NCBI GenBank assembly: GCA_037349105.1
Contig: JAYJMM010000038.1
Location: 3,260,501-3,324,500 of the forward strand
Reading direction: 5' to 3'
Origin: Limnomonas spitsbergensis
Taxonomy: Eukaryota > Chlorophyta > Chlorophyceae > Chlamydomonadales
DNA length: 64,000 nucleotides
Positions 34,107 through 55,168 of the stretch are shown piece after piece. The notes under the pieces are model-generated. The model made no database searches and was not told where the DNA came from. It worked only from the letters and a program-made list of their open reading frames with translations. Made by a program: the position numbers and the translations under genes. The stretch's first letter is position 1. Each line of letters opens with the position of its first letter.

Positions 34107-34153
34107 TTATCTAATGATGTGATAACTAATTTTATTATTTATCACACCCTCAG

Positions 34154-38100: not shown

Positions 38101-41100
38101 TAATAGTGCAAGGGTTTGTGCCAAACACAGACTTAAGTTGCTCATGGAGGAATATCCCAATCTGTTGGGTCATGATGCTATTGCTGGCACATTCAACCAA
38201 CTGCCACAGGATGTGTACGAAATAAATGAAAGACATCTCATTAACATTGGATGCCTTGATGGTACCCAATGGATGCTAACAGCAGGGTTTATGTGCACTG
38301 ACCTGTCCTCTGCAGGAAAACGTACAGGATTACAAGGAGAGAAAAGTTCCACATTTTCCCCTCTTATTAAAATTCTAGGATCTCTGCAGCATATGCAACA
38401 AGGGAGACGACCACCCATGTACCTAATTGAGAATGTTGCTGTACAATTTGCTATTGCAAAATCGCAGGCTATGACAGCAGGATTCCAGGAACTTACGGAG
38501 AGGCTGGGACACACTGTGTGTTTTGACGCTGTTGCTGTAGGTAGCTATGCCCACAGGCTGCGTAATTATTGGCAAAATATATGTTCCCCTGCTTCTTTGC
38601 AGTTGGTTATGATGTCCTTTGTCCGTGATGATACATTGCGCCTGACTGACATATTGGACCATGGAAGAAATCCCCGTACCTGTTTTAAAGTCAACAGGTA
38701 CCCATATCATCCAGCCAATATATTGAACGAACCTCTACGAGTTTTTCCTACAATGGTTGCTAGGATTGAATCTTATGCGTTCCGTCCCAACCCTGAATAT
38801 GAACCTGGACTTGTTTTAGAAACTGATCAAGCAGGAATTGTCACTAGACACGCCCTGACTATTCATGAGCGTGAACGTGCCATGGGATATGAGACTGACT
38901 GTACTGCTGGCAAGGATCTGATCTTTTCTGTGCGTCACAGGATAGTTGGAGGTGCTTTTGATGCTAATGCTGTCAGTCATCTGCTTGCTGTTGGAATTGC
39001 AATTCGATTTGCAAATGTTCCGCCTTCGCAGGAAATTTTTTCTGCATTCAATAACTTTCTCCCTCACTCCTTTGCCACTTCAGAACTGGAGCTGGGGGGG
39101 GATAGTGATCAGATATCTCAGCAGCTTAATCATTTATTTGCTGCTGGAGATTCTCTGATCTTACATGCAGCTCAGTCCTTAGCGGCTGAGTTCATAGAAC
39201 AACCCATGACTCGTGAGGAAGAGTCTCAATCATTTGCAGATATCTGGTTGGATAACAATGCTATGCAATATTTGAGGCGTTCCACTGACACAATGTTGCC
39301 CTTGCTGACCCCTGTAGAACGCAAGCGTCTTCAACGACGAGCTGCGCTCTATCTCTGGTCTTCAGAAAAGAATATTCTATATCGACGAATGCCAGGCGGT
39401 ACAACCAAGGTGGTACCACCCCCTGGTGACCGGTTGGCACTCGTGCACAAAATGCATGTAGAAAATGGTCATTATGGCAGGCGCCGCACGACGGGGCTTG
39501 TCATGATGACTCACTGGTGGGTTGGTTTATATAACGACTGCAAAAGAGTGGTCCAGTGCTGCGAGGCCTGTGATTACACTAAAGTATCGTTTAATGCTAT
39601 GCAGCCCGTTATGCATCCCTTACCCATCAGAGGACTTATGTACCGCTGGCACCTGGATCTTTCTGGTCCTTATACGGCCTCTAACCGTGGCCACACCTAT
39701 GTTATGGTAGCTGTAGAAAGCTACTCTAAATGGATTGAGGTCTTTCCTATGACTGCTAAATCATATAAAGAAGTAGCTTACCATTTCCTGCACGGCATAT
39801 TGGCACGATTTGGGGCATGCGCTGAAGTTGTCACAGACGGTGGTGGGGAGTTTCAGGGTGAAATGGACTCGCTGCTTGTCCGTGCCATGATTGATCATAG
39901 AGTCACCAGTTCTTTCCATCCCCAAGCCAATGGGCAAGCGGAAAGGCTGGTAAAGACTGTCAAAACTGCATTATCAAGGCACTTGCACGTCTCAAGAGAG
40001 CCTCGAGAATGGGACATGTATTTACCCTGGATAGCACTCGGGTACCGAGTCACTAAGCATGCTAGCACCTTGATGAGTCCCTACCAGCTGCTGTTTTCCT
40101 GTGAACCAGTCATCCCTCCCGCTATCATGGAAAGGTTGAATGGGGATCAGGCAGTGGATTACCTGGATGTGGATGCTGCTGCTGAACTTGTACTGTCCCG
40201 TTCTGAATTGCTAGCCAAGAACTGCGTGATGGTCGGCCAGAATCTTCTGGTTGCTCAACAGCGAGATACCCTGCGTTACGCAAGGCTTCGTAGTGGAGGT
40301 TACCTCCCATCAATAGCTAAGTATACTGAGGGGCAGTTTGTGTATGTGCGGGATGAGAACCGGCTGCACTCCACTGCAAGACCTTACGTGCTTCGAGTGT
40401 TTGATGTCCGGCCAAGTGGAGTCATTATCCTGGTTGGTCGCAATGGGGTGACTGTGGCTGAAAACGCTATTAACTGCGCACCATGTCATCTGCCCATAGA
40501 GGGACTCTTACCCCCATCCAAAAGATGGCAAAAGCCAGCACTAGACTTCCCTTGCCAGAGATGTCTGCTGCCTGATAATGCTAAGAAAATGATTCTGTGT
40601 GGCAGTTGTGGTCGAGGCACTCACACGTATTGTTTGGTACCACGGCTTACTACTGTCCCTGCTGGTTACTGGATTTGTGAGCAATGTAGGACTGCTGGAG
40701 CTGATGCTACTGGTGCTGCAAGACGTGATGTTGCGGCGGAGCTGGAGGAACCAGCGGCCGCTGTGACAGGTTACCAGCTGCGGCCTGCTAAGCAAAAGAA
40801 GGCAGGAAGGGTGATGGGAGCCGCCAATGGCGGTGGCCTTGGTGAGGATGAAGGAGAAGGACCCGCGGAAGACAGGGAAGATGACGCAGATTGTCTTGCC
40901 GGGACCGCCGCAGGCGGTGCCGGAAGCAATGCGAATGAGCCTGTCGGGACCGGCGCAGTTGTCAGCAAAGGGGAAATCACTGAGGAGGCGCAACCTGATG
41001 ATCAGCGCCCTACCCGTGCATCCGTGAGAATCCGCGTCCCCAACAAGAGGTTCGAAAGTCATGTCACTCATCCTTGGGTGCCCTCAGATTTCATCAACTG

Positions 41101-41803
41101 GGGTGTTCGCGGAGATGCGGTGGATGCCCTCAAGTCCTTGATGCCTGGAGTGTGGCGAGAGCGCGATGAGGCTGCGGTCTACTTGGGCAACAGGGTGCCG
41201 GGAGGATGTTCGTACCAACTCCACCCTCCTTCACCCCTCACCATTGAAGACAGCGACTGCAACACCCTGCTGGACTGCCTTGACCTATCCCTGTCCCCCA
41301 GCATTCTCTTGCTGTTCAAGGATAATGGGCAAGCCACTGAACTTCTGCAGAACAGCCAGCTTTACCCTTACCCTCGATCCCTCCACGTTCTTACCAATTC
41401 GGGCATTGGTGTCAACGTCCCTGCAGACTACTGTTCTGATCCGCTGCAACCCTCCACCTACGAGTTTCTGCTGCGACAACACGGGCTGCACGTTCTTATC
41501 ACAAACCCTCCGGATGAATACGCTGATATCTCCTGTGCCCTTGCGGTCAAGTACGCGCGTCATGTGGCCTGCTGCCTAGTCACCCAAGATTTCCTAAAGT
41601 GCCATCCTGCAAGGTTTGAGTGGCTATCCCAGCTACGGAGAGAAAGGCGGCTTGTCATTTTGCAGTCTGTCAGCTTCACAGCAGGTCTGGGAGTTAAACG
41701 GTCCATTCACGGTTGCTGTAGCAATAAAGTATGGATCCTTGTGTTTGCATCGGCAGCTATCCGCGCTCGCATGATCCCACCAATGCACACGTTCATCCGT
41801 TGA
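35171..41803 (+). CDS. pol: Pol polyprotein with RT, RNase H, C5 DNA methyltransferase, integrase and PHD finger (plus copy)
   Basis: 2210 residues from the ATG at 35171; the frame is open slightly upstream to an acceptor (CCCTTTGCAG) at 35150. Domains match the minus-strand copy (51031-44399), where they are described in full. RT catalytic Asp are at 366 and 431-432 (FIDDIL), RNase H Asp at 579, methyltransferase Cys at 1042 and ENV Glu at 1087, integrase D1496/D1556/E1591, PHD finger about 1793-1843. The only difference noticed from the other copy is Ser instead of Tyr at the codon around 37326. Although intact, this copy lacks gag and protease upstream, so it would depend on the complete element. 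Confidence 0.93.
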   Translation: MLRRARARELAQLRAKRIAILIEFWAKKVRRSRRVQRIADDKLKAELLRSDRLRVVTLKIDVCKSVRCPGPAITHKTQHLLRMQPTIMKWIFYLWLIATAFLFTPVNSMRTHNAPAQVFDLTRSIARDQYSREVLGSSLISQTGISYSADIQHYTDPALLNDLLSPDELHEGVPIEGSWSLDNMTPDSPADPVEPDKHFKMEQGWTLGNHADISEIERQQFQDELGDIIQAQSAYKLSDLTGYEGSVLPFTIGPPGETITLPPGIILRKARRRSPMEKEVMDEHMTPLMEAGFISECPRPLMIHEAVIAAKKDPVTGAWTDKRCCINYGKASGGINAFTPPDVYPLPLPEELFGRTEGCTVFSVCDMKSGFGQTSLSEECRDMTAFWWNDRCWKTNRNTFGLTNMPAYFQRVMNTVITEAGLDHCCVCFIDDILVFTKDLASHKAALKLLFAALKNCHMKVHPGKCKFLFNSLEYLGHMIGTTGISPSETKVLAIRALPTPTTVHELRRVIGFANYYRCYVPNFSVISSPLTELFKKDTPWLWTAERDKAWEHLKDELCKPGNALRTPDKNRRYILHTDWSQKGMSAVLGQKDDDGKEYLVACISRTCNVHEANYGSYKGEMLAAVWGVRAFRYYLLGAKIPFLIISDHKGLSWLMSNKELEGQYARWSVMLSPFSYELEYKPGVKHIVADVPSRFPVQSDLDWTGTKESHFATTWPFSYNSAFCGSGVDTDLTANSSKRAYSLMAACLSRTPQSAVPWGFAIEPFGPAIDPDPAPDKEQGVAGLQMISEDAEMSFPSPTEWPGLPRTRAIWPSPTFGSSVTNHIHSLATKLMIPDDTDDMSCCNAFDTAAAFDFEINGISSFSTRIHVPQMDTLSEKQKALRGTASSRVEDCRLLLQDLPPSHYTLLQVQELSEEGNPTEKGIRSINSTPVPQTSILTAVQEGVSLIELFGGMCGGLECMLRNGIRINHYYYADIDNSARVCAKHRLKLLMEEYPNLLGHDAIAGTFNQLPQDVYEINERHLINIGCLDGTQWMLTAGFMCTDLSSAGKRTGLQGEKSSTFSPLIKILGSLQHMQQGRRPPMYLIENVAVQFAIAKSQAMTAGFQELTERLGHTVCFDAVAVGSYAHRLRNYWQNICSPASLQLVMMSFVRDDTLRLTDILDHGRNPRTCFKVNRYPYHPANILNEPLRVFPTMVARIESYAFRPNPEYEPGLVLETDQAGIVTRHALTIHERERAMGYETDCTAGKDLIFSVRHRIVGGAFDANAVSHLLAVGIAIRFANVPPSQEIFSAFNNFLPHSFATSELELGGDSDQISQQLNHLFAAGDSLILHAAQSLAAEFIEQPMTREEESQSFADIWLDNNAMQYLRRSTDTMLPLLTPVERKRLQRRAALYLWSSEKNILYRRMPGGTTKVVPPPGDRLALVHKMHVENGHYGRRRTTGLVMMTHWWVGLYNDCKRVVQCCEACDYTKVSFNAMQPVMHPLPIRGLMYRWHLDLSGPYTASNRGHTYVMVAVESYSKWIEVFPMTAKSYKEVAYHFLHGILARFGACAEVVTDGGGEFQGEMDSLLVRAMIDHRVTSSFHPQANGQAERLVKTVKTALSRHLHVSREPREWDMYLPWIALGYRVTKHASTLMSPYQLLFSCEPVIPPAIMERLNGDQAVDYLDVDAAAELVLSRSELLAKNCVMVGQNLLVAQQRDTLRYARLRSGGYLPSIAKYTEGQFVYVRDENRLHSTARPYVLRVFDVRPSGVIILVGRNGVTVAENAINCAPCHLPIEGLLPPSKRWQKPALDFPCQRCLLPDNAKKMILCGSCGRGTHTYCLVPRLTTVPAGYWICEQCRTAGADATGAARRDVAAELEEPAAAVTGYQLRPAKQKKAGRVMGAANGGGLGEDEGEGPAEDREDDADCLAGTAAGGAGSNANEPVGTGAVVSKGEITEEAQPDDQRPTRASVRIRVPNKRFESHVTHPWVPSDFINWGVRGDAVDALKSLMPGVWRERDEAAVYLGNRVPGGCSYQLHPPSPLTIEDSDCNTLLDCLDLSLSPSILLLFKDNGQATELLQNSQLYPYPRSLHVLTNSGIGVNVPADYCSDPLQPSTYEFLLRQHGLHVLITNPPDEYADISCALAVKYARHVACCLVTQDFLKCHPARFEWLSQLRRERRLVILQSVSFTAGLGVKRSIHGCCSNKVWILVFASAAIRARMIPPMHTFIR

Positions 41804-42506
41804 TACATTAGCGTACTGCTTTCTTGTGACAGAATTAAACTGAGTTTCCTTCGTTGACTTTGACAATTGACTGTGTACCTGAGCGGAATTATCACTGGAT
41901 CTGGGGGGGGGCTTCTGGGAAATGGGATTTGACTTTACTGGTGCAGAAACTGATGTTTAGGATGATACTTGATTTCAAACAAAACAAAACAAATAAAATT
42001 GTGTGCAGTTTTCAATATCTGGGGGGGGAAGGTTGTTGTGCATAATACGCACTTTTAGGGTTTAGGAGGTGTCTACCGTGAGGTGGCATTCTCATATGCC
42101 TGGCGTGAGCCTATAGGCATCCTCGATCAGGTGTTAGTTAGGTGGTCGGGAAGTTTGAGATGGTGTGGATTGGGAAACCAATTGCACTAGAGCAGGGCTG
42201 ATGTAGTCTTCTGGACTTGGGGTCGATTGGGCCCTGGGGGAAGGTGAACAGTACCGATGGTTAGGAGAACTGGGCTCTTCAGCTTGAAGAGGGTCCCTTA
42301 AAGCGACTGTGGCGAGTTACGGTAATGCGTAAAAGTCACAGCTAACGTACGCATTATATCGGAGGTTATTTTTCCTACCGGTACTTGTGCCCCATGGACT
42401 CTGGGCAGGGCCCAGGGGTGGGAAGTCTGATAACAATACGCAGTTCTTAAAACGCTGTCGTACTTGTTTATTCTTGCCTCCAGTGTTTTTCGACCTGGGG
42501 GGGGAA
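41804..42506 (+). other. 3' untranslated region of the plus copy
   Basis: Non-coding. Contains G-tracts at 41902 and 42020, and the polypurine tract at 42497-42506. Mirrored at 43696-44398. The antisense frame 42552-42298 is open but begins inside sequence B and has no ATG. Confidence 0.7.
42497..42506 (+). promoter_or_regulatory. Polypurine tract candidate (plus copy)
   Basis: GGGGGGGGAA directly precedes the TGTC start of B. In LTR retroelements such a tract primes plus-strand synthesis and sets the start of the 3' terminal repeat. Confidence 0.7.
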
Positions 42507-42567
42507 TGTCTTGTGTTCTTTTCGCTTGGTGCACCCATTCCTTAGGGTGCACCTCTGTGCCGCGACA
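42507..42567 (+). repeat. 61-bp sequence B (plus copy)
   Basis: Follows the polypurine tract and is separated from the partial A by GC, forming the palindrome GACAGCTGTC (42564-42573). Confidence 0.85.
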
Positions 42568-42569
42568 GC

Positions 42570-42861
42570 TGTCACGACGTATGACTGCACCGTGCGTTTG
42601 ACTGCGCCAACTGCTTTTTCGGTTGGAAGTTGTGTGTGAACCTGAACAAGTGTGGGTGCCGACTTAGAGGATTCCGATCTGGGTCCTTTACTTTTTCTTT
42701 CTTACTTTGATCTCACGGCCTACAATAGACTCTTAACGTTTCTAGCTATTGTTCCTGATTATCAATCTGCAAGTTAATCGTCAATCCAAGTCTTACTAAG
42801 GGGAAACTGGCAGAGCAACTAGGCCAACAGCGACTCTATAAGCATCAACAAGTCTCCTGAT
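42570..42861 (+). repeat. Partial terminal repeat A (first 292 bp)
   Basis: Inverted copy of 43341-43632. It breaks off inside A at CCTGAT and runs straight into the ORF4-derived 22 bp of the junction repeat. Confidence 0.9.
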
Positions 42862-42883
42862 GTAATCAAAGAGGTCATTAGGT
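42843..42883 (+). repeat. 41-bp junction repeat (copy 2)
   Basis: Follows the partial A of the plus copy and precedes the bridge CTGTTGAT and A2. Identical to 33492-33532. Confidence 0.85.
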
Positions 42884-42891
42884 CTGTTGAT

Positions 42892-43632
42892 GACTTTTTC
42901 TTTCTTAAACAAGTACTAATAAACTCTTACAGAGCTTATAGTAAGAGCTTCTCGATCCACTGCTGTAACTCAGTGAAATCAGCTCGATAACAGGTGATAG
43001 CTCTTGCTACTTCACCTGGACTTCTTCGATACTGTTGACAAGATCTCGTAAAGCCTCGACACTTGAGGTACTTATGGGGTTCTTGGGACGATCTTGGGCG
43101 ATTGTGGCCGTTGATCTGTGTGATGAGTCGCTTGCTTGGCGACTTCTGATGAGTGAAGATATCTCTGATAAATCAGACGGTCGACTTGGAGCCAAAGGAA
43201 AGGCTGTAGATTGGAGGTGTGATGGTGGGTTGGTGGTAATATCCAGCTGTAAGACTGGAGATATGCCTTGTTAAGAGGCAGGAATAACGCTAATTGCTGC
43301 AGATGGTCGACTGTTGGCCTAGATGCACTGCCAGCTTCGTATCAGGAGACTTGTTGATGCTTATAGAGTCGCTGTTGGCCTAGTTGCTCTGCCAGTTTCC
43401 CCTTAGTAAGACTTGGATTGACGATTAACTTGCAGATTGATAATCAGGAACAATAGCTAGAAACGTTAAGAGTCTATTGTAGGCCGTGAGATCAAAGTAA
43501 GAAAGAAAAAGTAAAGGACCCAGATCGGAATCCTCTAAGTCGGCACCCACACTTGTTCAGGTTCACACACAACTTCCAACCGAAAAAGCAGTTGGCGCAG
43601 TCAAACGCACGGTGCAGTCATACGTCGTGACA
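42892..43632 (-). repeat. Terminal repeat A2 (741 bp)
   Basis: Direct repeat of 58630-59370 at a constant offset of 15738 with no gaps seen. In the minus sense it runs from TGTCACGACG to GAAAAAGTC. Together with B1 and GC it would form an 804-bp 3' LTR (43695-42892) if B is the start of the LTR. Confidence 0.92.
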
Positions 43633-43634
43633 GC

Positions 43635-43695
43635 TGTCGCGGCACAGAGGTGCACCCTAAGGAATGGGTGCACCAAGCGAAAAGAACACAAGACA
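43635..43695 (-). repeat. 61-bp sequence B1
   Basis: In the minus sense it lies between the polypurine tract (43705-43696) and GC-A2. The B1-A2 junction reads GACA-GC-TGTC, as in a joined-end circle. Confidence 0.88.
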
Positions 43696-43705
43696 TTCCC
43701 CCCCC
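43696..43705 (-). promoter_or_regulatory. Polypurine tract candidate (complete copy)
   Basis: GGGGGGGGAA on the minus strand, immediately before TGTCTTGTG of B1. Confidence 0.7.
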
Positions 43706-44398
43706 AGGTCGAAAAACACTGGAGGCAAGAATAAACAAGTACGACAGCGTTTTAAGAACTGCGTATTGTTATCAGACTTCCCACCCCTGGGCCCTGCCCA
43801 GAGTCCATGGGGCACAAGTACCGGTAGGAAAAATAACCTCCGATATAATGCGTACGTTAGCTGTGACTTTTACGCATTACCGTAACTCGCCACAGTCGCT
43901 TTAAGGGACCCTCTTCAAGCTGAAGAGCCCAGTTCTCCTAACCATCGGTACTGTTCACCTTCCCCCAGGGCCCAATCGACCCCAAGTCCAGAAGACTACA
44001 TCAGCCCTGCTCTAGTGCAATTGGTTTCCCAATCCACACCATCTCAAACTTCCCGACCACCTAACTAACACCTGATCGAGGATGCCTATAGGCTCACGCC
44101 AGGCATATGAGAATGCCACCTCACGGTAGACACCTCCTAAACCCTAAAAGTGCGTATTATGCACAACAACCTTCCCCCCCCAGATATTGAAAACTGCACA
44201 CAATTTTATTTGTTTTGTTTTGTTTGAAATCAAGTATCATCCTAAACATCAGTTTCTGCACCAGTAAAGTCAAATCCCATTTCCCAGAAGCCCCCCCCCA
44301 GATCCAGTGATAATTCCGCTCAGGTACACAGTCAATTGTCAAAGTCAACGAAGGAAACTCAGTTTAATTCTGTCACAAGAAAGCAGTACGCTAATGTA
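43706..44398 (-). other. 3' untranslated region of the complete copy
   Basis: Non-coding sequence between the pol stop and the polypurine tract, mirror of 41804-42496. It carries further G8-G9 tracts in the sense strand. Confidence 0.7.
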
Positions 44399-47300
44399 TC
44401 AACGGATGAACGTGTGCATTGGTGGGATCATGCGAGCGCGGATAGCTGCCGATGCAAACACAAGGATCCATACTTTATTGCTACAGCAACCGTGAATGGA
44501 CCGTTTAACTCCCAGACCTGCTGTGAAGCTGACAGACTGCAAAATGACAAGCCGCCTTTCTCTCCGTAGCTGGGATAGCCACTCAAACCTTGCAGGATGG
44601 CACTTTAGGAAATCTTGGGTGACTAGGCAGCAGGCCACATGACGCGCGTACTTGACCGCAAGGGCACAGGAGATATCAGCGTATTCATCCGGAGGGTTTG
44701 TGATAAGAACGTGCAGCCCGTGTTGTCGCAGCAGAAACTCGTAGGTGGAGGGTTGCAGCGGATCAGAACAGTAGTCTGCAGGGACGTTGACACCAATGCC
44801 CGAATTGGTAAGAACGTGGAGGGATCGAGGGTAAGGGTAAAGCTGGCTGTTCTGCAGAAGTTCAGTGGCTTGCCCATTATCCTTGAACAGCAAGAGAATG
44901 CTGGGGGACAGGGATAGGTCAAGGCAGTCCAGCAGGGTGTTGCAGTCGCTGTCTTCAATGGTGAGGGGTGAAGGAGGGTGGAGTTGGTACGAACATCCTC
45001 CCGGCACCCTGTTGCCCAAGTAGACCGCAGCCTCATCGCGCTCTCGCCACACTCCAGGCATCAAGGACTTGAGGGCATCCACCGCATCTCCGCGAACACC
45101 CCAGTTGATGAAATCTGAGGGCACCCAAGGATGAGTGACATGACTTTCGAACCTCTTGTTGGGGACGCGGATTCTCACGGATGCACGGGTAGGGCGCTGA
45201 TCATCAGGTTGCGCCTCCTCAGTGATTTCCCCTTTGCTGACAACTGCGCCGGTCCCGACAGGCTCATTCGCATTGCTTCCGGCACCGCCTGCGGCGGTCC
45301 CGGCAAGACAATCTGCGTCATCTTCCCTGTCTTCCGCGGGTCCTTCTCCTTCATCCTCACCAAGGCCACCGCCATTGGCGGCTCCCATCACCCTTCCTGC
45401 CTTCTTTTGCTTAGCAGGCCGCAGCTGGTAACCTGTCACAGCGGCCGCTGGTTCCTCCAGCTCCGCCGCAACATCACGTCTTGCAGCACCAGTAGCATCA
45501 GCTCCAGCAGTCCTACATTGCTCACAAATCCAGTAACCAGCAGGGACAGTAGTAAGCCGTGGTACCAAACAATACGTGTGAGTGCCTCGACCACAACTGC
45601 CACACAGAATCATTTTCTTAGCATTATCAGGCAGCAGACATCTCTGGCAAGGGAAGTCTAGTGCTGGCTTTTGCCATCTTTTGGATGGGGGTAAGAGTCC
45701 CTCTATGGGCAGATGACATGGTGCGCAGTTAATAGCGTTTTCAGCCACAGTCACCCCATTGCGACCAACCAGGATAATGACTCCACTTGGCCGGACATCA
45801 AACACTCGAAGCACGTAAGGTCTTGCAGTGGAGTGCAGCCGGTTCTCATCCCGCACATACACAAACTGCCCCTCAGTATACTTAGCTATTGATGGGAGGT
45901 AACCTCCACTACGAAGCCTTGCGTAACGCAGGGTATCTCGCTGTTGAGCAACCAGAAGATTCTGGCCGACCATCACGCAGTTCTTGGCTAGCAATTCAGA
46001 ACGGGACAGTACAAGTTCAGCAGCAGCATCCACATCCAGGTAATCCACTGCCTGATCCCCATTCAACCTTTCCATGATAGCGGGAGGGATGACTGGTTCA
46101 CAGGAAAACAGCAGCTGGTAGGGACTCATCAAGGTGCTAGCATGCTTAGTGACTCGGTACCCGAGTGCTATCCAGGGTAAATACATGTCCCATTCTCGAG
46201 GCTCTCTTGAGACGTGCAAGTGCCTTGATAATGCAGTTTTGACAGTCTTTACCAGCCTTTCCGCTTGCCCATTGGCTTGGGGATGGAAAGAACTGGTGAC
46301 TCTATGATCAATCATGGCACGGACAAGCAGCGAGTCCATTTCACCCTGAAACTCCCCACCACCGTCTGTGACAACTTCAGCGCATGCCCCAAATCGTGCC
46401 AATATGCCGTGCAGGAAATGGTAAGCTACTTCTTTATATGATTTAGCAGTCATAGGAAAGACCTCAATCCATTTAGAGTAGCTTTCTACAGCTACCATAA
46501 CATAGGTGTGGCCACGGTTAGAGGCCGTATAAGGACCAGAAAGATCCAGGTGCCAGCGGTACATAAGTCCTCTGATGGGTAAGGGATGCATAACGGGCTG
46601 CATAGCATTAAACGATACTTTAGTGTAATCACAGGCCTCGCAGCACTGGACCACTCTTTTGCAGTCGTTATATAAACCAACCCACCAGTGAGTCATCATG
46701 ACAAGCCCCGTCGTGCGGCGCCTGCCATAATGACCATTTTCTACATGCATTTTGTGCACGAGTGCCAACCGGTCACCAGGGGGTGGTACCACCTTGGTTG
46801 TACCGCCTGGCATTCGTCGATATAGAATATTCTTTTCTGAAGACCAGAGATAGAGCGCAGCTCGTCGTTGAAGACGCTTGCGTTCTACAGGGGTCAGCAA
46901 GGGCAACATTGTGTCAGTGGAACGCCTCAAATATTGCATAGCATTGTTATCCAACCAGATATCTGCAAATGATTGAGACTCTTCCTCACGAGTCATGGGT
47001 TGTTCTATGAACTCAGCCGCTAAGGACTGAGCTGCATGTAAGATCAGAGAATCTCCAGCAGCAAATAAATGATTAAGCTGCTGAGATATCTGATCACTAT
47101 CCCCCCCCAGCTCCAGTTCTGAAGTGGCAAAGGAGTGAGGGAGAAAGTTATTGAATGCAGAAAAAATTTCCTGCGAAGGCGGAACATTTGCAAATCGAAT
47201 TGCAATTCCAACAGCAAGCAGATGACTGACAGCATTAGCATCAAAAGCACCTCCAACTATCCTGTGACGCACAGAAAAGATCAGATCCTTGCCAGCAGTA

Positions 47301-50300
47301 CAGTCAGTCTCATATCCCATGGCACGTTCACGCTCATGAATAGTCAGGGCGTGTCTAGTGACAATTCCTGCTTGATCAGTTTCTAAAACAAGTCCAGGTT
47401 CATATTCAGGGTTGGGACGGAACGCATAAGATTCAATCCTAGCAACCATTGTAGGAAAAACTCGTAGAGGTTCGTTCAATATATTGGCTGGATGATATGG
47501 GTACCTGTTGACTTTAAAACAGGTACGGGGATTTCTTCCATGGTCCAATATGTCAGTCAGGCGCAATGTATCATCACGGACAAAGGACATCATAACCAAC
47601 TGCAAAGAAGCAGGGGAACATATATTTTGCCAATAATTACGCAGCCTGTGGGCATAGCTACCTACAGCAACAGCGTCAAAACACACAGTGTGTCCCAGCC
47701 TCTCCGTAAGTTCCTGGAATCCTGCTGTCATAGCCTGCGATTTTGCAATAGCAAATTGTACAGCAACATTCTCAATTAGGTACATGGGTGGTCGTCTCCC
47801 TTGTTGCATATGCTGCAGAGATCCTAGAATTTTAATAAGAGGGGAAAATGTGGAACTTTTCTCTCCTTGTAATCCTGTACGTTTTCCTGCAGAGGACAGG
47901 TCAGTGCACATAAACCCTGCTGTTAGCATCCATTGGGTACCATCAAGGCATCCAATGTTAATGAGATGTCTTTCATTTATTTCGTACACATCCTGTGGCA
48001 GTTGGTTGAATGTGCCAGCAATAGCATCATGACCCAACAGATTGGGATATTCCTCCATGAGCAACTTAAGTCTGTGTTTGGCACAAACCCTTGCACTATT
48101 ATCAATGTCAGCATAGTAATAGTGGTTGATGCGGATGCCATTTCTCAGCATGCATTCTAACCCTCCGCACATACCACCAAACAGTTCAATCAGTGACACA
48201 CCTTCTTGCACAGCAGTAAGAATGCTGGTTTGAGGAACAGGTGTAGAATTTATTGAGCGAATCCCTTTTTCAGTAGGATTGCCTTCTTCTGACAGTTCTT
48301 GCACCTGCAGTAAAGTATAGTGGGAAGGAGGCAAATCCTGCAAAAGCAAACGGCAATCTTCAACTCTTGAAGAAGCTGTTCCCCTTAGAGCTTTTTGTTT
48401 CTCCGATAGCGTGTCCATCTGCGGCACATGAATGCGAGTGGAAAATGAGGAAATGCCATTGATTTCAAAATCAAAGGCAGCTGCAGTATCAAATGCATTA
48501 CAGCAACTCATATCATCCGTGTCATCAGGAATCATCAGTTTAGTAGCCAACGAATGAATGTGGTTTGTAACAGATGAGCCGAAGGTGGGAGAAGGCCATA
48601 TGGCTCGGGTTCTAGGTAGGCCTGGCCACTCGGTAGGTGAAGGAAAAGACATTTCAGCATCCTCAGAAATCATTTGCAATCCAGCAACACCTTGCTCCTT
48701 ATCAGGAGCTGGATCAGGATCTATTGCAGGACCAAATGGTTCTATGGCAAATCCCCACGGGACTGCACTCTGGGGCGTTCTAGACAAACAAGCAGCCATA
48801 AGGGAATACGCTCTTTTAGAACTATTAGCAGTCAAATCAGTGTCTACACCTGATCCACAGAATGCAGAGTTGTAGTAAAAGGGCCACGTCGTTGCGAAGT
48901 GACTCTCTTTTGTGCCTGTCCAGTCCAGATCTGACTGAACAGGGAACCTGCTGGGGACATCGGCAACAATATGTTTAACACCTGGTTTGTATTCAAGCTC
49001 ATATGAGAACGGCGAGAGCATGACAGACCAGCGGGCATACTGCCCCTCTAATTCTTTATTAGACATAAGCCAAGACAACCCTTTATGATCGCTTATTATT
49101 AGAAATGGTATTTTAGCCCCAAGCAGATAATAGCGGAAGGCTCTCACTCCCCATACTGCGGCTAACATTTCTCCCTTGTAAGACCCATAATTAGCCTCAT
49201 GCACATTGCAAGTCCTGCTGATGCAGGCTACTAGATATTCCTTTCCATCATCATCTTTTTGACCCAGAACGGCTGACATGCCTTTCTGGGACCAATCTGT
49301 GTGAAGGATGTAACGGCGATTTTTATCAGGTGTGCGCAATGCGTTACCAGGTTTGCAGAGTTCATCTTTTAGGTGTTCCCATGCCTTATCCCTCTCAGCT
49401 GTCCACAGCCAAGGAGTGTCCTTCTTAAACAACTCTGTAAGGGGGCTGGAGATGACAGAAAAGTTAGGAACATAACATCGGTAATAATTAGCAAAGCCAA
49501 TGACACGACGCAGTTCATGCACAGTAGTGGGCGTGGGTAAAGCCCTGATTGCCAAGACCTTGGTTTCACTAGGTGAAATACCTGTGGTTCCAATCATATG
49601 GCCCAGGTACTCCAGGCTGTTAAACAGAAACTTGCATTTTCCTGGATGCACCTTCATATGACAATTCTTGAGGGCAGCAAACAGTAGTTTCAGTGCAGCT
49701 TTGTGTGATGCAAGATCTTTGGTAAAGACCAGGATATCATCTATAAAACATACACAACAGTGATCAAGGCCTGCTTCAGTTATTACAGTATTCATGACTC
49801 TCTGGAAGTATGCAGGCATATTAGTAAGGCCAAAGGTATTTCGGTTAGTTTTCCAACACCGATCATTCCACCAGAACGCAGTCATGTCCCTGCATTCTTC
49901 AGACAGTGAAGTTTGACCGAAACCAGATTTCATATCACAAACGGAGAATACAGTACAACCTTCAGTTCTTCCAAACAGTTCTTCAGGCAGGGGTAGAGGG
50001 TACACATCAGGAGGTGTAAAGGCATTAATACCTCCAGATGCTTTACCATAATTAATACAGCATCTTTTATCAGTCCAAGCGCCAGTCACGGGATCCTTCT
50101 TGGCAGCTATAACTGCTTCATGTATCATAAGGGGCCGAGGACACTCACTGATGAATCCAGCTTCCATGAGAGGGGTCATGTGTTCGTCCATAACTTCTTT
50201 CTCCATGGGTGACCTCCTGCGAGCCTTTCTGAGAATAATACCTGGGGGCAAAGTTATAGTCTCTCCAGGGGGACCTATGGTGAAGGGAAGAACTGATCCT

Positions 50301-51031
50301 TCATAACCTGTCAAGTCAGACAATTTATAAGCGCTTTGTGCCTGGATAATATCTCCTAGTTCATCCTGGAACTGCTGCCTCTCAATCTCACTAATATCAG
50401 CATGATTGCCCAGGGTCCAACCTTGTTCCATCTTGAAATGTTTATCAGGTTCTACAGGATCTGCTGGGCTGTCAGGTGTCATATTATCTAAAGACCAAGA
50501 TCCCTCAATAGGGACTCCTTCGTGAAGCTCATCAGGTGACAACAGGTCATTCAACAACGCTGGATCTGTGTAATGCTGAATATCTGCTGAGTAAGAGATA
50601 CCTGTCTGCGAGATCAGTGAAGATCCTAATACTTCTCTTGAGTACTGGTCTCGTGCGATGCTGCGGGTTAAATCAAAAACCTGAGCTGGGGCATTGTGAG
50701 TTCTCATACTGTTAACAGGTGTGAACAGGAATGCTGTGGCTATCAGCCAGAGATAGAAGATCCATTTCATTATGGTGGGTTGCATTCTGAGGAGATGCTG
50801 CGTTTTGTGAGTGATAGCAGGACCAGGGCACCGCACAGATTTACAGACATCAATCTTCAAAGTCACAACTCGTAACCTGTCAGACCTAAGCAGTTCAGCC
50901 TTGAGCTTGTCATCAGCAATCCTCTGAACCCTGCGAGATCTCCTGACTTTCTTGGCCCAAAACTCAATGAGAATAGCAATACGCTTAGCGCGCAGCTGAG
51001 CAAGTTCCCTAGCTCTAGCACGGCGCAGCAT
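44399..51031 (-). CDS. pol: Pol polyprotein: RT - RNase H - C5 cytosine methyltransferase - integrase - PHD finger
   Basis: 2210 residues from the ATG at 51031. After a basic start, a hydrophobic segment (IFYLWLIATAFLF, about 90) looks like a signal or membrane segment. RT about 260-480 has D366 (VCDMKSGF) and FIDDIL at 429-434. RNase H starts at YILHTD (D579). Residues about 945-1285 form a C5 DNA methyltransferase: SLIELFGGMCGG (motif I), MCTDLSSAGKRTGL with catalytic C1042 (motif IV), LIENV with E1087 (VI), YAHRLRNYW (VIII), ERERAMGY (IX region) and GGAFDANAVSHLL (X). Integrase: zinc H2C2 about 1427-1470, then D1496, D1556 and E1591 with 34 residues between the last two. A C4HC3 PHD finger (CQRC...CGSC...H..C...CEQC) lies at about 1793-1843. 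The C-terminal ~350 residues are unassigned but contain ITNPPDEYA. No catalytic residue is missing. Confidence 0.95.
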   Translation of the reverse strand: MLRRARARELAQLRAKRIAILIEFWAKKVRRSRRVQRIADDKLKAELLRSDRLRVVTLKIDVCKSVRCPGPAITHKTQHLLRMQPTIMKWIFYLWLIATAFLFTPVNSMRTHNAPAQVFDLTRSIARDQYSREVLGSSLISQTGISYSADIQHYTDPALLNDLLSPDELHEGVPIEGSWSLDNMTPDSPADPVEPDKHFKMEQGWTLGNHADISEIERQQFQDELGDIIQAQSAYKLSDLTGYEGSVLPFTIGPPGETITLPPGIILRKARRRSPMEKEVMDEHMTPLMEAGFISECPRPLMIHEAVIAAKKDPVTGAWTDKRCCINYGKASGGINAFTPPDVYPLPLPEELFGRTEGCTVFSVCDMKSGFGQTSLSEECRDMTAFWWNDRCWKTNRNTFGLTNMPAYFQRVMNTVITEAGLDHCCVCFIDDILVFTKDLASHKAALKLLFAALKNCHMKVHPGKCKFLFNSLEYLGHMIGTTGISPSETKVLAIRALPTPTTVHELRRVIGFANYYRCYVPNFSVISSPLTELFKKDTPWLWTAERDKAWEHLKDELCKPGNALRTPDKNRRYILHTDWSQKGMSAVLGQKDDDGKEYLVACISRTCNVHEANYGSYKGEMLAAVWGVRAFRYYLLGAKIPFLIISDHKGLSWLMSNKELEGQYARWSVMLSPFSYELEYKPGVKHIVADVPSRFPVQSDLDWTGTKESHFATTWPFYYNSAFCGSGVDTDLTANSSKRAYSLMAACLSRTPQSAVPWGFAIEPFGPAIDPDPAPDKEQGVAGLQMISEDAEMSFPSPTEWPGLPRTRAIWPSPTFGSSVTNHIHSLATKLMIPDDTDDMSCCNAFDTAAAFDFEINGISSFSTRIHVPQMDTLSEKQKALRGTASSRVEDCRLLLQDLPPSHYTLLQVQELSEEGNPTEKGIRSINSTPVPQTSILTAVQEGVSLIELFGGMCGGLECMLRNGIRINHYYYADIDNSARVCAKHRLKLLMEEYPNLLGHDAIAGTFNQLPQDVYEINERHLINIGCLDGTQWMLTAGFMCTDLSSAGKRTGLQGEKSSTFSPLIKILGSLQHMQQGRRPPMYLIENVAVQFAIAKSQAMTAGFQELTERLGHTVCFDAVAVGSYAHRLRNYWQNICSPASLQLVMMSFVRDDTLRLTDILDHGRNPRTCFKVNRYPYHPANILNEPLRVFPTMVARIESYAFRPNPEYEPGLVLETDQAGIVTRHALTIHERERAMGYETDCTAGKDLIFSVRHRIVGGAFDANAVSHLLAVGIAIRFANVPPSQEIFSAFNNFLPHSFATSELELGGDSDQISQQLNHLFAAGDSLILHAAQSLAAEFIEQPMTREEESQSFADIWLDNNAMQYLRRSTDTMLPLLTPVERKRLQRRAALYLWSSEKNILYRRMPGGTTKVVPPPGDRLALVHKMHVENGHYGRRRTTGLVMMTHWWVGLYNDCKRVVQCCEACDYTKVSFNAMQPVMHPLPIRGLMYRWHLDLSGPYTASNRGHTYVMVAVESYSKWIEVFPMTAKSYKEVAYHFLHGILARFGACAEVVTDGGGEFQGEMDSLLVRAMIDHRVTSSFHPQANGQAERLVKTVKTALSRHLHVSREPREWDMYLPWIALGYRVTKHASTLMSPYQLLFSCEPVIPPAIMERLNGDQAVDYLDVDAAAELVLSRSELLAKNCVMVGQNLLVAQQRDTLRYARLRSGGYLPSIAKYTEGQFVYVRDENRLHSTARPYVLRVFDVRPSGVIILVGRNGVTVAENAINCAPCHLPIEGLLPPSKRWQKPALDFPCQRCLLPDNAKKMILCGSCGRGTHTYCLVPRLTTVPAGYWICEQCRTAGADATGAARRDVAAELEEPAAAVTGYQLRPAKQKKAGRVMGAANGGGLGEDEGEGPAEDREDDADCLAGTAAGGAGSNANEPVGTGAVVSKGEITEEAQPDDQRPTRASVRIRVPNKRFESHVTHPWVPSDFINWGVRGDAVDALKSLMPGVWRERDEAAVYLGNRVPGGCSYQLHPPSPLTIEDSDCNTLLDCLDLSLSPSILLLFKDNGQATELLQNSQLYPYPRSLHVLTNSGIGVNVPADYCSDPLQPSTYEFLLRQHGLHVLITNPPDEYADISCALAVKYARHVACCLVTQDFLKCHPARFEWLSQLRRERRLVILQSVSFTAGLGVKRSIHGCCSNKVWILVFASAAIRARMIPPMHTFIR

Positions 51032-51160
51032 AGGCTTGTTACCCAAACTCTGCAAAGGGACAACAAAAGCAGAGCCCCTAAGGGGATGCGCAGGTCGAAA
51101 TTCAGGATGACGCTTTCTGATGAGAGCCTCTAAACTGCACTTCCTAGCCTGCGCAACACT

Positions 51161-52048
51161 TCAAGAGTTAGGGAAGCCCAGAATCTCCTGCACAGTAACC
51201 TCTGCGACCTCAGCAGCAAACACTGCTATATCTGCCAAAATGTCGGTTTTGTCCCTGCGCTTGCGGAACACACAGATGCCCTTGTACTTCTTCCACCACT
51301 CGCGTACCTGTTCGTGGTTCTTGCTACGAACGAGAATGGTAAGCTGCCCCATCATAGTTGGCGTGAGGCTTGTCTTTATTTCCTCGTGGTAGGCTGGCGT
51401 GCCTCGCCCATCGTACCGATCTGCGCCCTCGATGGATGTGACGGGGACAAAAGCCCGTGCTGCGCTGCGCAGCTGCCTCGTGGACCCCCCATCGCCGGAT
51501 GGAGCTGCAGCATGCTCTGAAGTTGCCGCTGTGTGATCGTCAAGATCCATACGGTCAGGTGCTGACTCGGCAGCAGCTTCAGGGATGAGCCGCAGCTTGT
51601 TGTGCTGATCCAGGTCATGGTTCAGCTCCTCTTCCCTCTGCTGTTGCCTCCTCAGCTTTTTGCGCTCCTTGCGCAGCTTCCGCTCCTCATCGTCGAGCGG
51701 TGGTTTGGGCGCCTTCATTAGAGGAAGGGCCTCGTCACCACCGGACTTCCAGGCCCCATGCCCGCCCTGAGGCGATTGCATTTGCCCTTCCGTCTGGCTC
51801 CTTCCGCCGGCCAGGTTTGCACCACGGCCAGGGTTGGAGCCGGAGGCGCCGCCAGTTGCCTTGCGCTTATTTAAAAGCACGGCTTGACGACGCCTAGCTT
51901 CCTTCCTGGCGGCAGCTGCCGCTCGCTCCTTGAGCAGGATCCGTGCCTGTGCCTCAATGATCTTGTAGCCGTCCCTGAGGATGGCATTGTCGCTGACCAT
52001 CTGAGCATGGTCGCTGTCAGCCTTGCTGAGTTTGGGCTGTCTGGGCAT
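51161..52048 (-). CDS. Retroelement ORF5, basic coiled-coil protein (complete copy)
   Basis: 295 residues, identical to 34154-35041. It is separated from pol by 129 bp and from ORF4 by 190 bp. The preceding gap holds the nested hairpin 52096-52185 and an acceptor-like sequence ending directly at the ATG. Function unknown; strongly basic N-terminus and predicted coiled coil in the middle third. Confidence 0.75.
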   Translation of the reverse strand: MPRQPKLSKADSDHAQMVSDNAILRDGYKIIEAQARILLKERAAAAARKEARRRQAVLLNKRKATGGASGSNPGRGANLAGGRSQTEGQMQSPQGGHGAWKSGGDEALPLMKAPKPPLDDEERKLRKERKKLRRQQQREEELNHDLDQHNKLRLIPEAAAESAPDRMDLDDHTAATSEHAAAPSGDGGSTRQLRSAARAFVPVTSIEGADRYDGRGTPAYHEEIKTSLTPTMMGQLTILVRSKNHEQVREWWKKYKGICVFRKRRDKTDILADIAVFAAEVAEVTVQEILGFPNS

Positions 52049-52095
52049 CTGAGGGTGTGATAAATAATAAAATTAGTTATCACATCATTAGATAA

Positions 52096-52185
52096 TGAAC
52101 AGCACTTCAGACACACTTCCCCCCCCACTAACAGTCATTACTGAAAGAAGTGATCTGTTAGTGTGACTAGGATGAGTGCTGTTCA
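52096..52185 (-). promoter_or_regulatory. Nested hairpin between ORF4 and ORF5 (complete copy)
   Basis: Mirror of 34017-34106, with the same 11-bp outer and 9-bp inner perfect stems and a G-tract. Confidence 0.6.
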
Positions 52186-52238
52186 ATGTTTTATCATTTA
52201 AAAAAAAAATGTTAAGACAATAGGGTTGGGATTGGTCT

Positions 52239-52949
52239 TTATGGACCAACCCCAAACACCCAGGGAGACCTGATGAATTTTACTGGCACATCAAATGTGC
52301 CATCAGGTTGCTGCACATCAGCAGGTCTAGCTTTGTACACATGTAAGTCAGATTTATTCAATAGCATTTCATCATCATCAGATAAGGGTTCTACTGTTGG
52401 GCAATATTGCCATTTAAGGCTTGCCTCAGTTTCCCAAGCAACATCAAATGCTCTAGGCAAAGGGTATTCAAATTCAGACAGAGCAATGTATTTGTACCAA
52501 TCAAACAGCAGCTGATGACTGATCATGTCTGATTTTGCACTCTTGCAGTTCAACCTTAATTCAGAGATTCTGTCGACCGTGAGGTCTTCAGACGCATCCG
52601 AATCTTGGTCAAGTTCATCCCTAGCATCTTTTAGCCGAGTGATACTGGTCAGAAGTCTAGCATCCTGCAACCTAATGACCTCTTTGATTACATCAAAGCG
52701 GTACTGCGCCAAGGATTTGCTAACAGGTTTATCTGCTGCTATCCCTGCAGATGGGTACAGTGCACTAGCATCATCAATACTAAGTTCAGTGTCACCCATG
52801 CCAGGAATTCTGAAAATGCAAGCGACAGCTGAACTCCCAATATATTCCAGGCGGTAAGCCCTTCCAGAAATTAATTGTGAGGCATGTATAAATCTACGAG
52901 AGGCTAGATTCCCACCAGAAGTTATTCTGATATGAGAAGGACTTCTCAT
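52239..52949 (-). CDS. Retroelement ORF4, unknown protein
   Basis: About 236 residues from the first ATG (52949). The frame is open somewhat upstream, next to an acceptor-like AACAGCAGCAG. The N-terminal part (SGRAYRLEYIGSSAVACIF) could be a small beta domain; the C-terminal half is acidic and helical (RLKDARDELDQDSDASEDL). No family recognised. It lies between ORF3 and ORF5 on the same strand, so it is part of the element. The sequence around DVIKEVIRLQ is where the inverted arm ends (52695) and is copied in the 41-bp junction repeat. Confidence 0.7.
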   Translation of the reverse strand: MRSPSHIRITSGGNLASRRFIHASQLISGRAYRLEYIGSSAVACIFRIPGMGDTELSIDDASALYPSAGIAADKPVSKSLAQYRFDVIKEVIRLQDARLLTSITRLKDARDELDQDSDASEDLTVDRISELRLNCKSAKSDMISHQLLFDWYKYIALSEFEYPLPRAFDVAWETEASLKWQYCPTVEPLSDDDEMLLNKSDLHVYKARPADVQQPDGTFDVPVKFIRSPWVFGVGP

Positions 52950-53101
52950 GACAAAACAACTGCTGCTGTTTAGCAATTAACTACACCGTATTCAGACGGT
53001 GGATGATCGTTGCTAGTTGATCGCAGAAGTACTCACTTCAAGTACTTGATACTGCGCAAGCAATAATTGAAAGACAAAAGTTAATTTATCAGTTCAATTA
53101 C
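52950..53101 (-). promoter_or_regulatory. Inter-ORF gap with micro-exon-like cassette (ORF3/ORF4)
   Basis: On the minus strand an acceptor TTGCTTGCGCAG is followed by 15 nt (53051-53037), a strong donor GTGAGTAC (53036-53029), and then CTGAATACGGTGTAG (52995-52981). The same order occurs in the gap before ORF3. Confidence 0.5.
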
Positions 53102-53893
53102 CTAGGGGGCAGCAGGTGCAGGCTCAGGGCCAAACACGACGTCTCCAGGGATGAGAGGGACCGGCGCTGTTGGGCAGTGCCGCCGTTCATTCTCTCTGAA
53201 GATGTTAAGGGGCCTGCCGAGCCACAGCATCGCTCCAGTGGCGCCTAATGGGAACCCAGGTGCTGAGTATCCTCTTAGGGATCTTGCCCATTCAGACAGT
53301 CTAAAGCGCTGATGCTGGTATCGCACCCAGAAGTCTCGGAGAATGAGGCCCTTGGACATGACCTGCTGCATTCCCTTTATTATGTAGTGTTGTTCTACAA
53401 TGTGAAGCGCCTCTGGATAGGAACGATCGCATTGCAGAACTCCAAAATGACATCTAGAAAGGGGCCAGACCGGCCCATCCCATGGCCCATTCCACGCAAC
53501 TAAGTCCAAGCCATAAAGGCCAGCTCCAATTGCATACAGCAATGCTGGTGAGGTGTCAACGGTGCAGAGGAGGTCTAAGTCGTCTGCGATTTGGTTCATC
53601 TCATCAGAGACAAGCTGGGCTGCAATGGATGTCCGCTGAGCGTATTTAGGAAGCTGTTCAGCGGCCTCATCAGGAGAAAGGCTGTCCCACCAAAGGCGCG
53701 GCGGCAGCCTTTCTAGCTGGTTAAATTGCATAATCGCATGGTGGTTGTGTAAAGACGGCCACTGATGGATTCTATGAGGCGCATTGCTCCAGCAGTGCAA
53801 GGTAGAGAAATATTCTCGTGGTACCGCTACGGGGTGTTGTTGCCCAAGCCATGTTTTGTTCAATGGTCTATCCCGGGCAGGAGGGATCGCCAT
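53102..53893 (-). CDS. Retroelement ORF3, unknown protein
   Basis: 263 residues. The ATG at 53893 directly follows TCATTTACGCAG, which looks like a splice acceptor. The protein is Trp/Pro-rich (for example RLPPRLWWDSLSPDEAAEQL, WNGPWDGPVWPLSRC) and ends GPEPAPAAP. I recognise no domain. It is present only in the complete copy and lies between protease and ORF4. Possible roles are structural or accessory; none can be claimed from sequence. Confidence 0.7.
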   Translation of the reverse strand: MAIPPARDRPLNKTWLGQQHPVAVPREYFSTLHCWSNAPHRIHQWPSLHNHHAIMQFNQLERLPPRLWWDSLSPDEAAEQLPKYAQRTSIAAQLVSDEMNQIADDLDLLCTVDTSPALLYAIGAGLYGLDLVAWNGPWDGPVWPLSRCHFGVLQCDRSYPEALHIVEQHYIIKGMQQVMSKGLILRDFWVRYQHQRFRLSEWARSLRGYSAPGFPLGATGAMLWLGRPLNIFRENERRHCPTAPVPLIPGDVVFGPEPAPAAP

Positions 53894-54157
53894 CTGCGTA
53901 AATGACAGGCACCAAGGTGCTCATCATTATACAAGCAAACACCAACTACTGATACTAACAGAGTCCACTACACCGTAATCAGGAGTAGTGCAGTATGAAG
54001 ACTGGTACTCACTTGTAGGAGTAGATCTGCAGCAGTGAGGAGGAGGAAAGCAGAGCAGATTGAGTGATGTGAAATACTGTGTCATCTCAATCAGCAGCAC
54101 ACTTCCCCCCCCAACTCTACAGGATGCAATCATGCAGAGTTGAAAGTTGCTGTACCT
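53894..54157 (-). promoter_or_regulatory. Inter-ORF gap with micro-exon-like cassette (protease/ORF3)
   Basis: Minus strand: a G8 tract (around 54107), pyrimidine-rich sequence and CACTGCTGCAG, then 14 nt (54026-54013), donor GTGAGTAC (54012-54005), CTGATTACGGTGTAG (about 53982-53968), and finally the acceptor before the ORF3 ATG. Confidence 0.5.
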
Positions 54158-55132
54158 CTATGTATCTGATCTTACAGTCGCTACTGGCAGCTCAAGAACA
54201 TTTGAAGACCAATTTGGTCGGAAAGTGAGGATACCTCTGGCAACATCATGGATCGCTCTGTAATGTATGCTATCAGGGTTCCCGAACAATGCAATGAACG
54301 AGTGCGACGGAGCCCAGGCAATGACCAGAAAACAGTGCTCACTGGTAAGCTCTGCAGACCCAGACCCATAAGAAATCGTGATAATAGGCGTAATGCCCCT
54401 GATTGTGTCAACACCACCACTAGTGGCGAGCTTCATGGGGTATGGAAGAATAGGTATGCCCAGGCGGTGCGCCTCTCTGTCGGTGATCAAATGACAATTC
54501 GACCCGAAATCTAACATGGCCCTATCAGGCAATTGTTTTGGGCCGCCATCATAGATCAAGCCCACTTGCTCACCTGGCGACTCTTCAGGGTTCGCAAAAT
54601 AGAATAATGATCCTGTAAGCGAACGAAAGTATGCACCAATGTCCGATGCGTTAGCAACGAGTGCGCTCATTCGCAGAGGGTCAGGTTCAGGCAACTCTCT
54701 CACCAGAAAAGACTCGGGCCCAGGCTCTGCAGCAGTATGCACACGGATAGAAGCAGATCGATCAAATATGAAGCGTTGGCTAGTGTCTGTTAGAGAAACA
54801 TCAGAAGATAATATAGTAGGTTCAATCACAGACTGCCGTCCGTTCCCCGGAACCCTAACCTCAGACCATCGAGAACCTGGACCGTGCGTAAGCAACGTGG
54901 TCGGCACCTCAGTCTGAAAAAGTGAAGCAGAAGCTGCCCCCCTGTCCACAAATGGATTCCCAGAAAATGTGCGATATTTGCCCGCGTCAGCCTCAGCTTC
55001 CGAAAACCCGACAAGTGTATCTAATTTGGAAGCCGGGCCAGGGACTCTGGACTTTCCCTGGAACCCGTCTGGAAATTTTTTAGACCCCTTTTTAGCAAAG
55101 TCATCTCGAAAACTCCCTAATACTGCAGCCAT
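54158..55132 (-). CDS. pro: Aspartic protease ORF, in frame with gag after a TGA
   Basis: 324 residues from the ATG at 55132. The core is RAMLDFGSNCHLITDREAHRLG, where a retropepsin would have D-(S/T)-G followed by an Ala or Ser. Here the triplet is DFG, so the catalytic Asp and Gly are present but the middle residue is unusual. Downstream, a hydrophobic stretch (HSFIALFGNPDSIHY) and ARGILTF fit the rest of the fold, as in the ILG...H..V.DC...I.F pattern of gypsy proteases. The frame is the same as gag, with one TGA between (55168-55166), so it may be made by readthrough as a gag-pro fusion. It would cleave the polyproteins. Confidence 0.75.
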   Translation of the reverse strand: MAAVLGSFRDDFAKKGSKKFPDGFQGKSRVPGPASKLDTLVGFSEAEADAGKYRTFSGNPFVDRGAASASLFQTEVPTTLLTHGPGSRWSEVRVPGNGRQSVIEPTILSSDVSLTDTSQRFIFDRSASIRVHTAAEPGPESFLVRELPEPDPLRMSALVANASDIGAYFRSLTGSLFYFANPEESPGEQVGLIYDGGPKQLPDRAMLDFGSNCHLITDREAHRLGIPILPYPMKLATSGGVDTIRGITPIITISYGSGSAELTSEHCFLVIAWAPSHSFIALFGNPDSIHYRAIHDVARGILTFRPNWSSNVLELPVATVRSDT

Positions 55133-55144
55133 TGCTGTCAGGTG

Positions 55145-55168
55145 ATGGGTACCAGGTACCCCATGTCA
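55145..55168 (-). promoter_or_regulatory. gag stop codon and hairpin, candidate readthrough site
   Basis: TGA at 55168-55166 is followed after one base by a near-perfect inverted repeat (55164-55145: ATGGG, then GTACC, mirrored by GGTAC and CCAT). The frame stays open into the protease with no further stop. Confidence 0.5.

Follow-up and report, generated by a model that had tools for sequence, protein, structure and literature searches.

Cytosine methylation is usually a weapon that hosts turn against transposons, and the locus analyzed here raises the question of why a retrotransposon would encode a DNA methyltransferase of its own. The locus lies in a 64,000-nt stretch of the green alga Limnomonas spitsbergensis (assembly GCA_037349105.1, contig JAYJMM010000038.1, positions 3,260,501 to 3,324,500; hereafter, the window), the minus strand of which carries a Pol open reading frame (ORF) of 2253 aa (P0001; 51160-44399, stop to stop). 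A Pfam scan of this protein yielded, in order, a reverse transcriptase (RT), an RNase H, a C5 methyltransferase, an H2C2-DDE integrase and a PHD finger. RT (RVT_1, 74 bits; matched part, residues 398-523, 49592-49969), RNase H (RT_RNaseH, 96 bits; residues 586-718, 49007-49405) and the zinc-binding domain of the integrase (Integrase_H2C2, 40 bits; residues 1460-1514, 46619-46783) were readily identified, and the integrase core (rve; residues 1534-1626, 46283-46561) scored 32.2 bits against a cut-off of 32.6 in the window and above the cut-off in P0005, P0010 and P0024. The methyltransferase domain spans residues 985-1335 (47156-48208); its Pfam match (DNA_methylase, 23.2 bits, cut-off 22) covers only residues 1071-1134 and is marginal taken alone. 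With the RT, RNase H and integrase (H2C2 and DDE core) succession that defines Ty3/gypsy elements, these results point to an autonomous Ty3/gypsy-type retrotransposon whose Pol has captured a DNMT3-type C5 methyltransferase between RNase H and integrase. An earlier note on this DNA, made from the sequence alone, had proposed this arrangement, which Pfam, a family profile and the predicted fold now bear out. The interval it gave is real, but it is one of two Pol copies in an inverted repeat, and the start it assigned (51031) corresponds to Met44 of the longer frame starting at 51160.

To characterize the methyltransferase domain, we searched PDB sequences with a 19-row family profile, which matched DNMT3A (6.8e-17), DNMT3B (7e-15), the 4onj entry labeled 'DNA methyltransferase' (3.4e-12), which we take to be a plant DRM, DRM2 (3e-9), HhaI (1.2e-6) and DNMT2 (2e-3). 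An AlphaFold2 model of the domain (predicted local distance difference score, 90; predicted template-modeling (TM) score, 0.88) had DNMT3A as its top Foldseek match (E 1.3e-19, TM 0.82 by target). Profile and predicted fold thus class the domain as DNMT3-like and not Dcm-like, as had been suspected from its motifs. A bacterial Dcm origin was discarded on the same profile, in which HhaI trails DNMT3A by roughly ten orders of magnitude, and a chance motif match is ruled out by profile, fold and selection.

The earlier claim of all main C5 motifs holds, with one qualification. The catalytic cysteine (Cys1085, formerly numbered Cys1042) and the E-N-V motif at Glu1130 are present, as is R-L-R-N-Y-W-Q-N at 1172, but motif IV lacks its proline and reads F-M-C rather than P-C. 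A search for relatives, using words from the methyltransferase domain and restricted to Pol-sized proteins, returned 26 matches (E 3.6e-21 or better), 35-53% identical to the window; all but P0027 cover motif IV. In the 25 covering relatives Cys1085, Glu1130-Asn1131, Arg1172, Arg1174 and the motif VIII Asn1179 are invariant. The residue preceding the catalytic cysteine, Met in the window, is Glu in 19 of these relatives, Pro in three, Ala in two and Ser in one, and the third residue of E-N-V is Thr (19), Val (4) or Ala (2). The P-C form is retained in P0021, P0024 and P0025, and in 11 of the 35 matches of a search with the domain alone (P0061, a weak match of another kind, uncounted). In all 26 matches the methyltransferase is part of the same protein or open frame as RT, RNase H or integrase, and its being an intron is disfavored; uninterrupted frames in the host genome (9 of 110 matches) are the stronger evidence on this point, since the 26 matches were limited to Pol-sized proteins and those from Chlamydomonas eustigma are gene models.

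Comparison of the window with 18 fetched genomic copies demonstrates that the domain is maintained. The ratio of nonsynonymous to synonymous substitution rates (dN/dS) ranges from 0.074 to 0.186 in all 11 comparisons with dS below 1; a further comparison gives 0.07 at near-saturated dS (2.7), the other six are saturated and give no value, and no stop codon falls within the domain in any of the 18 copies. In six copies, the median dN/dS is 0.12 for the methyltransferase (6/6 aligned), 0.03 for RT-RNase H (5/6), 0.10 for the PHD finger (6/6, none with more than one amino-acid change), 0.11 for a C-terminal domain described below (5/6) and 0.35 for the linker between these last two (6/6). Because the copies were mostly picked in open frames and the window sequence enters every comparison, the sample behind these values is neither random nor independent. 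The methyltransferase is under purifying selection, less strictly than RT, and the PHD finger and C-terminal domain are likewise under purifying selection.

The element is one member of a large family that has been active recently. In the host assembly (G000; 260.2 Mb, 124 contigs) the methyltransferase domain has at least 110 matches (959 candidates, of which 110 were scored), with identities of 56-100% and near-identical copies among them; nine lie within 2253-aa open frames, two of them in the window. A further subfamily has frames of up to about 5300 aa; in four fetched copies (L069, L070, L071 and L079) its methyltransferase shows about 41% identity. Named relatives come from C. eustigma and Haematococcus lacustris, and others include metagenomic sequences. 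We inferred trees for RT-RNase H (22 of 26 rows), methyltransferase (26/26) and integrase (24/26), dropping rows with less than 60% coverage and leaving out P0027 throughout. The window groups with the C. eustigma Pols in all three (support 100/99, 90/85 and 97/95, respectively). By eye the trees have their main supported groups in common, with weak deeper branches, which fits a single old capture of the methyltransferase, probably inherited with Pol ever since.

The domain-alone search returned 35 matches of 235-560 aa. Of these, 31 (E 2.6e-23 or better) resemble fragments of the family, some carrying RNase H or PHD, and the remaining four, all weak matches (P0059-P0062), are other C5 enzymes and not free-standing relatives. 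No host donor gene was found among the 35 matches, and no relatives were confirmed in viral or prokaryotic contigs. The host assembly also contains three C5-methyltransferase ORFs of bacterial or giant-viral look by eye (L001, G000:C30:293433; L002, C93:390191; L003, C14:272908), possibly endogenized viral genes.

The PHD finger that the earlier note had placed C-terminal to the integrase was confirmed (34.5 bits, cut-off 24; residues 1838-1882, 45515-45649), with the full C4HC3 ligand set. The pattern is present in 21 of the 26 relatives and missing in P0004, which ends within the integrase, P0009, P0018, P0025, which looks frameshifted by eye, and P0027. Across 21 aligned fingers (the window, 19 of the 21 pattern-bearing relatives and the fragment P0049), Pro39 and Trp43 are invariant besides the eight zinc ligands, whose invariance is by construction, because the fingers were chosen by that pattern. 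The nearest solved PHD sequences are those of KMT2D, KAT6A/B, BAZ2B, DPF, KDM5 and others, several of which are known readers of the histone H3 tail. A few distant relatives may also carry a Tudor-like stretch past the integrase or PHD, as weakly suggested by Pfam PTM_DIR17_Tudor, which reached 26.0 bits against a cut-off of 27.2 in a single segment out of six and 12.7 bits in P0018.

C-terminal to the PHD finger, the analysis also revealed a second, amino-type DNA-methyltransferase-like domain, absent from the earlier note (residues 2060-2253, 44402-44983). The domain has a class I methyltransferase fold, and its DPxxGxG and [DNS]PP[FYW] motifs are degenerate both in the window and in all 25 host loci aligned (30 fetched). 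Both motifs are intact in 11 of 16 profile matches, and also in P0014 and P0017, and the alignment shows S-P-P-F in P0068. Despite the loss of motifs, the domain is under selection, as noted above. A profile search of PDB sequences with this domain gave no match or only spurious ones, and Dam was not among its Pfam matches. Fourteen frames of 280-295 aa in the host genome carry only this domain (for instance G000 C82:1264945, C110:2394218, C117:369177 and C120:1831723); they are 89-92% identical, two with an internal stop, and are perhaps a non-autonomous or domesticated derivative.

Together, a selected DNMT3-like domain, a selected PHD finger and a selected second methyltransferase-like domain suggest that the element may itself write DNA marks. 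The explanation that we favor as a whole, with a confidence only slightly above even, is that the captured enzyme methylates element complementary DNA (cDNA), that the PHD finger docks the integration complex and that the C-terminal domain is kept as a binding module. Within the particle or the pre-integration complex, the substrate of the Pol methyltransferase would be double-stranded cDNA of the element itself, so that a new copy would reach the genome already marked. Such a pre-set mark could either hide the copy from host responses to unmethylated DNA or silence it at once and thereby limit harm to the host. At the tail of the integrase, the PHD finger would bind the histone H3 tail and dock the integration complex, as chromodomains do in chromoviruses, and the C-terminal domain, catalytically degenerate in this host, would be retained for nucleic-acid or cofactor binding. 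For a writer that sits between RNase H and integrase, the simplest view is that it methylates the cDNA of its own element, and this view accords with a proposal made in the parts of PMC5890265 consulted, which also report activity of some retroelement DNMTs in yeast.

Several observations count against this explanation. The proline of motif IV, Met in the window, is missing in 22 of the 25 covering relatives; the constraint on RT far exceeds that on the methyltransferase (0.03 vs 0.12), in comparisons that mostly involve copies chosen for open frames and all include the window sequence; and the Asp usual in the L-L-C-D of PHD fingers is Gly in the window. A median observed/expected CpG ratio that is lower in the element (0.59, 16 sub-windows) than in its flanks (0.67, 37 sub-windows; p 0.002; GpC control, p 0.15) speaks in its favor, but the gap is small, the 4.6-kb right flank and the element as a whole have the same ratio (0.56) and coding composition confounds the comparison. 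Furthermore, the domain of KnitGypsy-Dnmt3, an element of Klebsormidium nitens, gave no methylation in yeast, a result that its authors, in the parts of PMC5890265 consulted, call inconclusive.

The loss of the motif IV proline speaks for an alternative in which the domain is a DNMT3L-like pseudo-enzyme that binds DNA, S-adenosylmethionine or a host DNMT and aids Pol assembly or targeting without catalysis, and the neighboring methyltransferase-like domain, under selection despite the evident loss of its motifs, lends this alternative further weight. We nevertheless consider it unlikely, since the Cys, Glu-Asn and Arg-x-Arg residues, unneeded without catalysis, are invariant over relatives only 35-53% identical. 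It is rather improbable, too, that the enzyme works in trans on host chromatin or RNA instead of element cDNA, altering host methylation: the high copy number (at least 110 domain matches) and the closeness in sequence of the PHD finger to those of chromatin proteins are in keeping with such a role, and the idea has been raised for dinoflagellate elements in the parts of PMC5890265 consulted, but CpG depletion is only weak. That the domain is a functionless passenger or an artefact of annotation or assembly, as the odd inverted repeat at the window copy might hint, is very improbable and already contradicted by selection (dN/dS 0.07-0.19), as well as by the homologous Pols (26) that other species and metagenomes contain and the many further copies in the 260-Mb genome.

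Unlike the Pol domains, the repeats of the element do not follow the conventional long terminal repeat (LTR) layout of LTR-internal-LTR. Instead, they present the split direct repeat order of DIRS elements (A-coding-B-A-B), laid out as A1 (741 nt), internal region, poly-G tract, B1 (63 nt), GC, A2 and B2. On the minus strand of the window, A1 (58630-59370) starts with TGTCACG and is 100% identical to A2 (42892-43632); the polypurine tract GGGGGGGG (43698-43705) stands ahead of B1 (43635-43697), and B2 (63 nt; 33427-33489) forms the 3' end of the element, ending in GCGACA. In the copies L017 and L027, B1 likewise stands ahead of A2 and B2 directly behind it, and L031 and L032 are solitary A-B units. 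A2 matches to about position 728 in intact copies and is followed by B2, whereas in the window it reaches 741, like A1, and runs into an inverted insert. The same 4 bp, ACAT, flank the element on its 5' (59371-59374) and 3' (33423-33426) sides, and 4-bp target-site duplications were found in all eight cases checked among 42 repeat matches (five of five paired ends, two of two solitary units and the window). The A-B-A-B order combined with TG..CA ends and 4-bp duplications indicates repeats in DIRS order with the ends and duplication of a DDE integrase, in place of the tyrosine recombinase and lack of duplication typical of DIRS.

Between A1 and Pol, the minus strand encodes a Gag-like ORF of 1144 aa (55166-58600; a CX2CX3HX4C knuckle by eye, no Pfam match) and, in the same frame after a TGA, an aspartyl protease-like ORF (54158-55165; Asp_protease_2, 19 bits, under the cut-off of 24.3). 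Three ORFs of 272 aa (53102-53920), 245 aa (52239-52976) and 303 aa (51161-52072, in the Pol frame ahead of a TGA) follow, with no Pfam match and no counterpart among 78 comparison proteins. Six runs of at least eight G occur on the element strand (54112, 52126, 47108, 44299, 44181 and 43705), several in a polypurine-tract context, and may be secondary plus-strand primers; runs of at least seven also occur in the flank (nine G and six C runs in the first 33 kb). The flanks contain tandem repeats at 17733-18246 (50 nt), 62790-63515 (67 nt) and 11930-12271 (48 nt), and Rfam and tRNA scans of the window were empty.

The window copy is further distinguished by a 9355-nt inverted repeat with a single mismatch (arms 33507-42861 and 43341-52695). 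Between A2 and B2 lies an inverted partial copy of the element (33490-42891, plus strand) containing the second Pol ORF (35042-41803, plus strand). A 41-nt direct repeat borders the insert, as could arise either from a circular intermediate or from an overlap made by the assembler, and the 21-mer at the circle-like internal junction of the insert has just two occurrences in the genome, both in the window. The target-site duplication encloses the entire 33427-59370 unit, so the palindrome arose in cDNA before integration, by later rearrangement or in assembly.

This gypsy lineage encodes a DNMT3-like enzyme of its own alongside a histone-reading finger and another methyltransferase-like domain, maintains the set under selection and propagates it, which reverses the usual picture of methylation as a host defense, and with at least 110 domain matches, near-identical copies and relatives in named algae, the question of why transposons encode DNA methyltransferases becomes directly testable. 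Retrotransposons bearing DNMTs are already known. For this lineage and set of modules, in contrast, no description was found in searches of an open-licence library, be it of chlorophyte DNMT-gypsy elements or of a DNMT and a PHD finger in one Pol, in line with the earlier suggestion that this combination of writer and reader may be undescribed.

Among known systems, chromoviruses (chromodomain Ty3/gypsy elements), in the descriptions consulted, likewise carry a chromatin reader C-terminal to the integrase, whereas the window element has a PHD finger in place of the chromodomain, in addition to the DNMT and the split repeats. In DIRS elements with a Dam-like methyltransferase, that enzyme adjoins RT/RNase H and is not known to lie behind a PHD finger. 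As described in the parts of PMC5890265 and PMC6338049 consulted, these elements, whose enzyme is an N6-adenine methyltransferase, resemble the present one in that a retroelement Pol includes an amino-type DNA methyltransferase, but use a tyrosine recombinase. SymbioDIRS-Dnmt3 and SymbioLINE-Dnmt of dinoflagellates, according to the same parts of PMC5890265, are also retroelements with a C5 methyltransferase, the former with A-coding-B-A-B repeats, but rely on a tyrosine recombinase or on LINE machinery instead of a DDE integrase.

The closest parallel is KnitGypsy-Dnmt3, which, in the parts of PMC5890265 consulted, combines a gypsy-type Pol with an in-frame DNMT3-type domain, a DIRS-like repeat order with gypsy domains (Fig. 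4 legend) and a DNMT under purifying selection (Ka/Ks < 0.2). It differs in its charophyte host and, compared by description only, in that the term 'PHD' is absent from the main text of PMC5890265. Its authors treat it there as an independent acquisition, and a 2025 paper from the same group (PMC12344493, also consulted in part) speaks of DNMT3 retrotransposons as Copia and DIRS. No match named Klebsormidium occurred among our 26 Pol-sized or 35 domain-alone matches. Repeats in DIRS order with gypsy domains are common to KnitGypsy-Dnmt3 and the window element, which makes common descent worth testing. We tentatively propose, at somewhat less than an even chance, an ancestral Pol with two unrelated DNA methyltransferases (a DNMT3-type C5 enzyme and an amino-type N6-adenine/N4-cytosine enzyme) and a PHD finger as chromatin reader, perhaps joined by a second, Tudor-like one in a few relatives. 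On this view, motif-intact relatives, P0014 and P0017 among them, may still write two different DNA marks and read histones, and the DIRS-like repeats and DNMT3-type enzyme of the lineage may descend in common with those of KnitGypsy-Dnmt3. In that last case, a single capture reaching back as far as green plants themselves would take the place of two separate ones.

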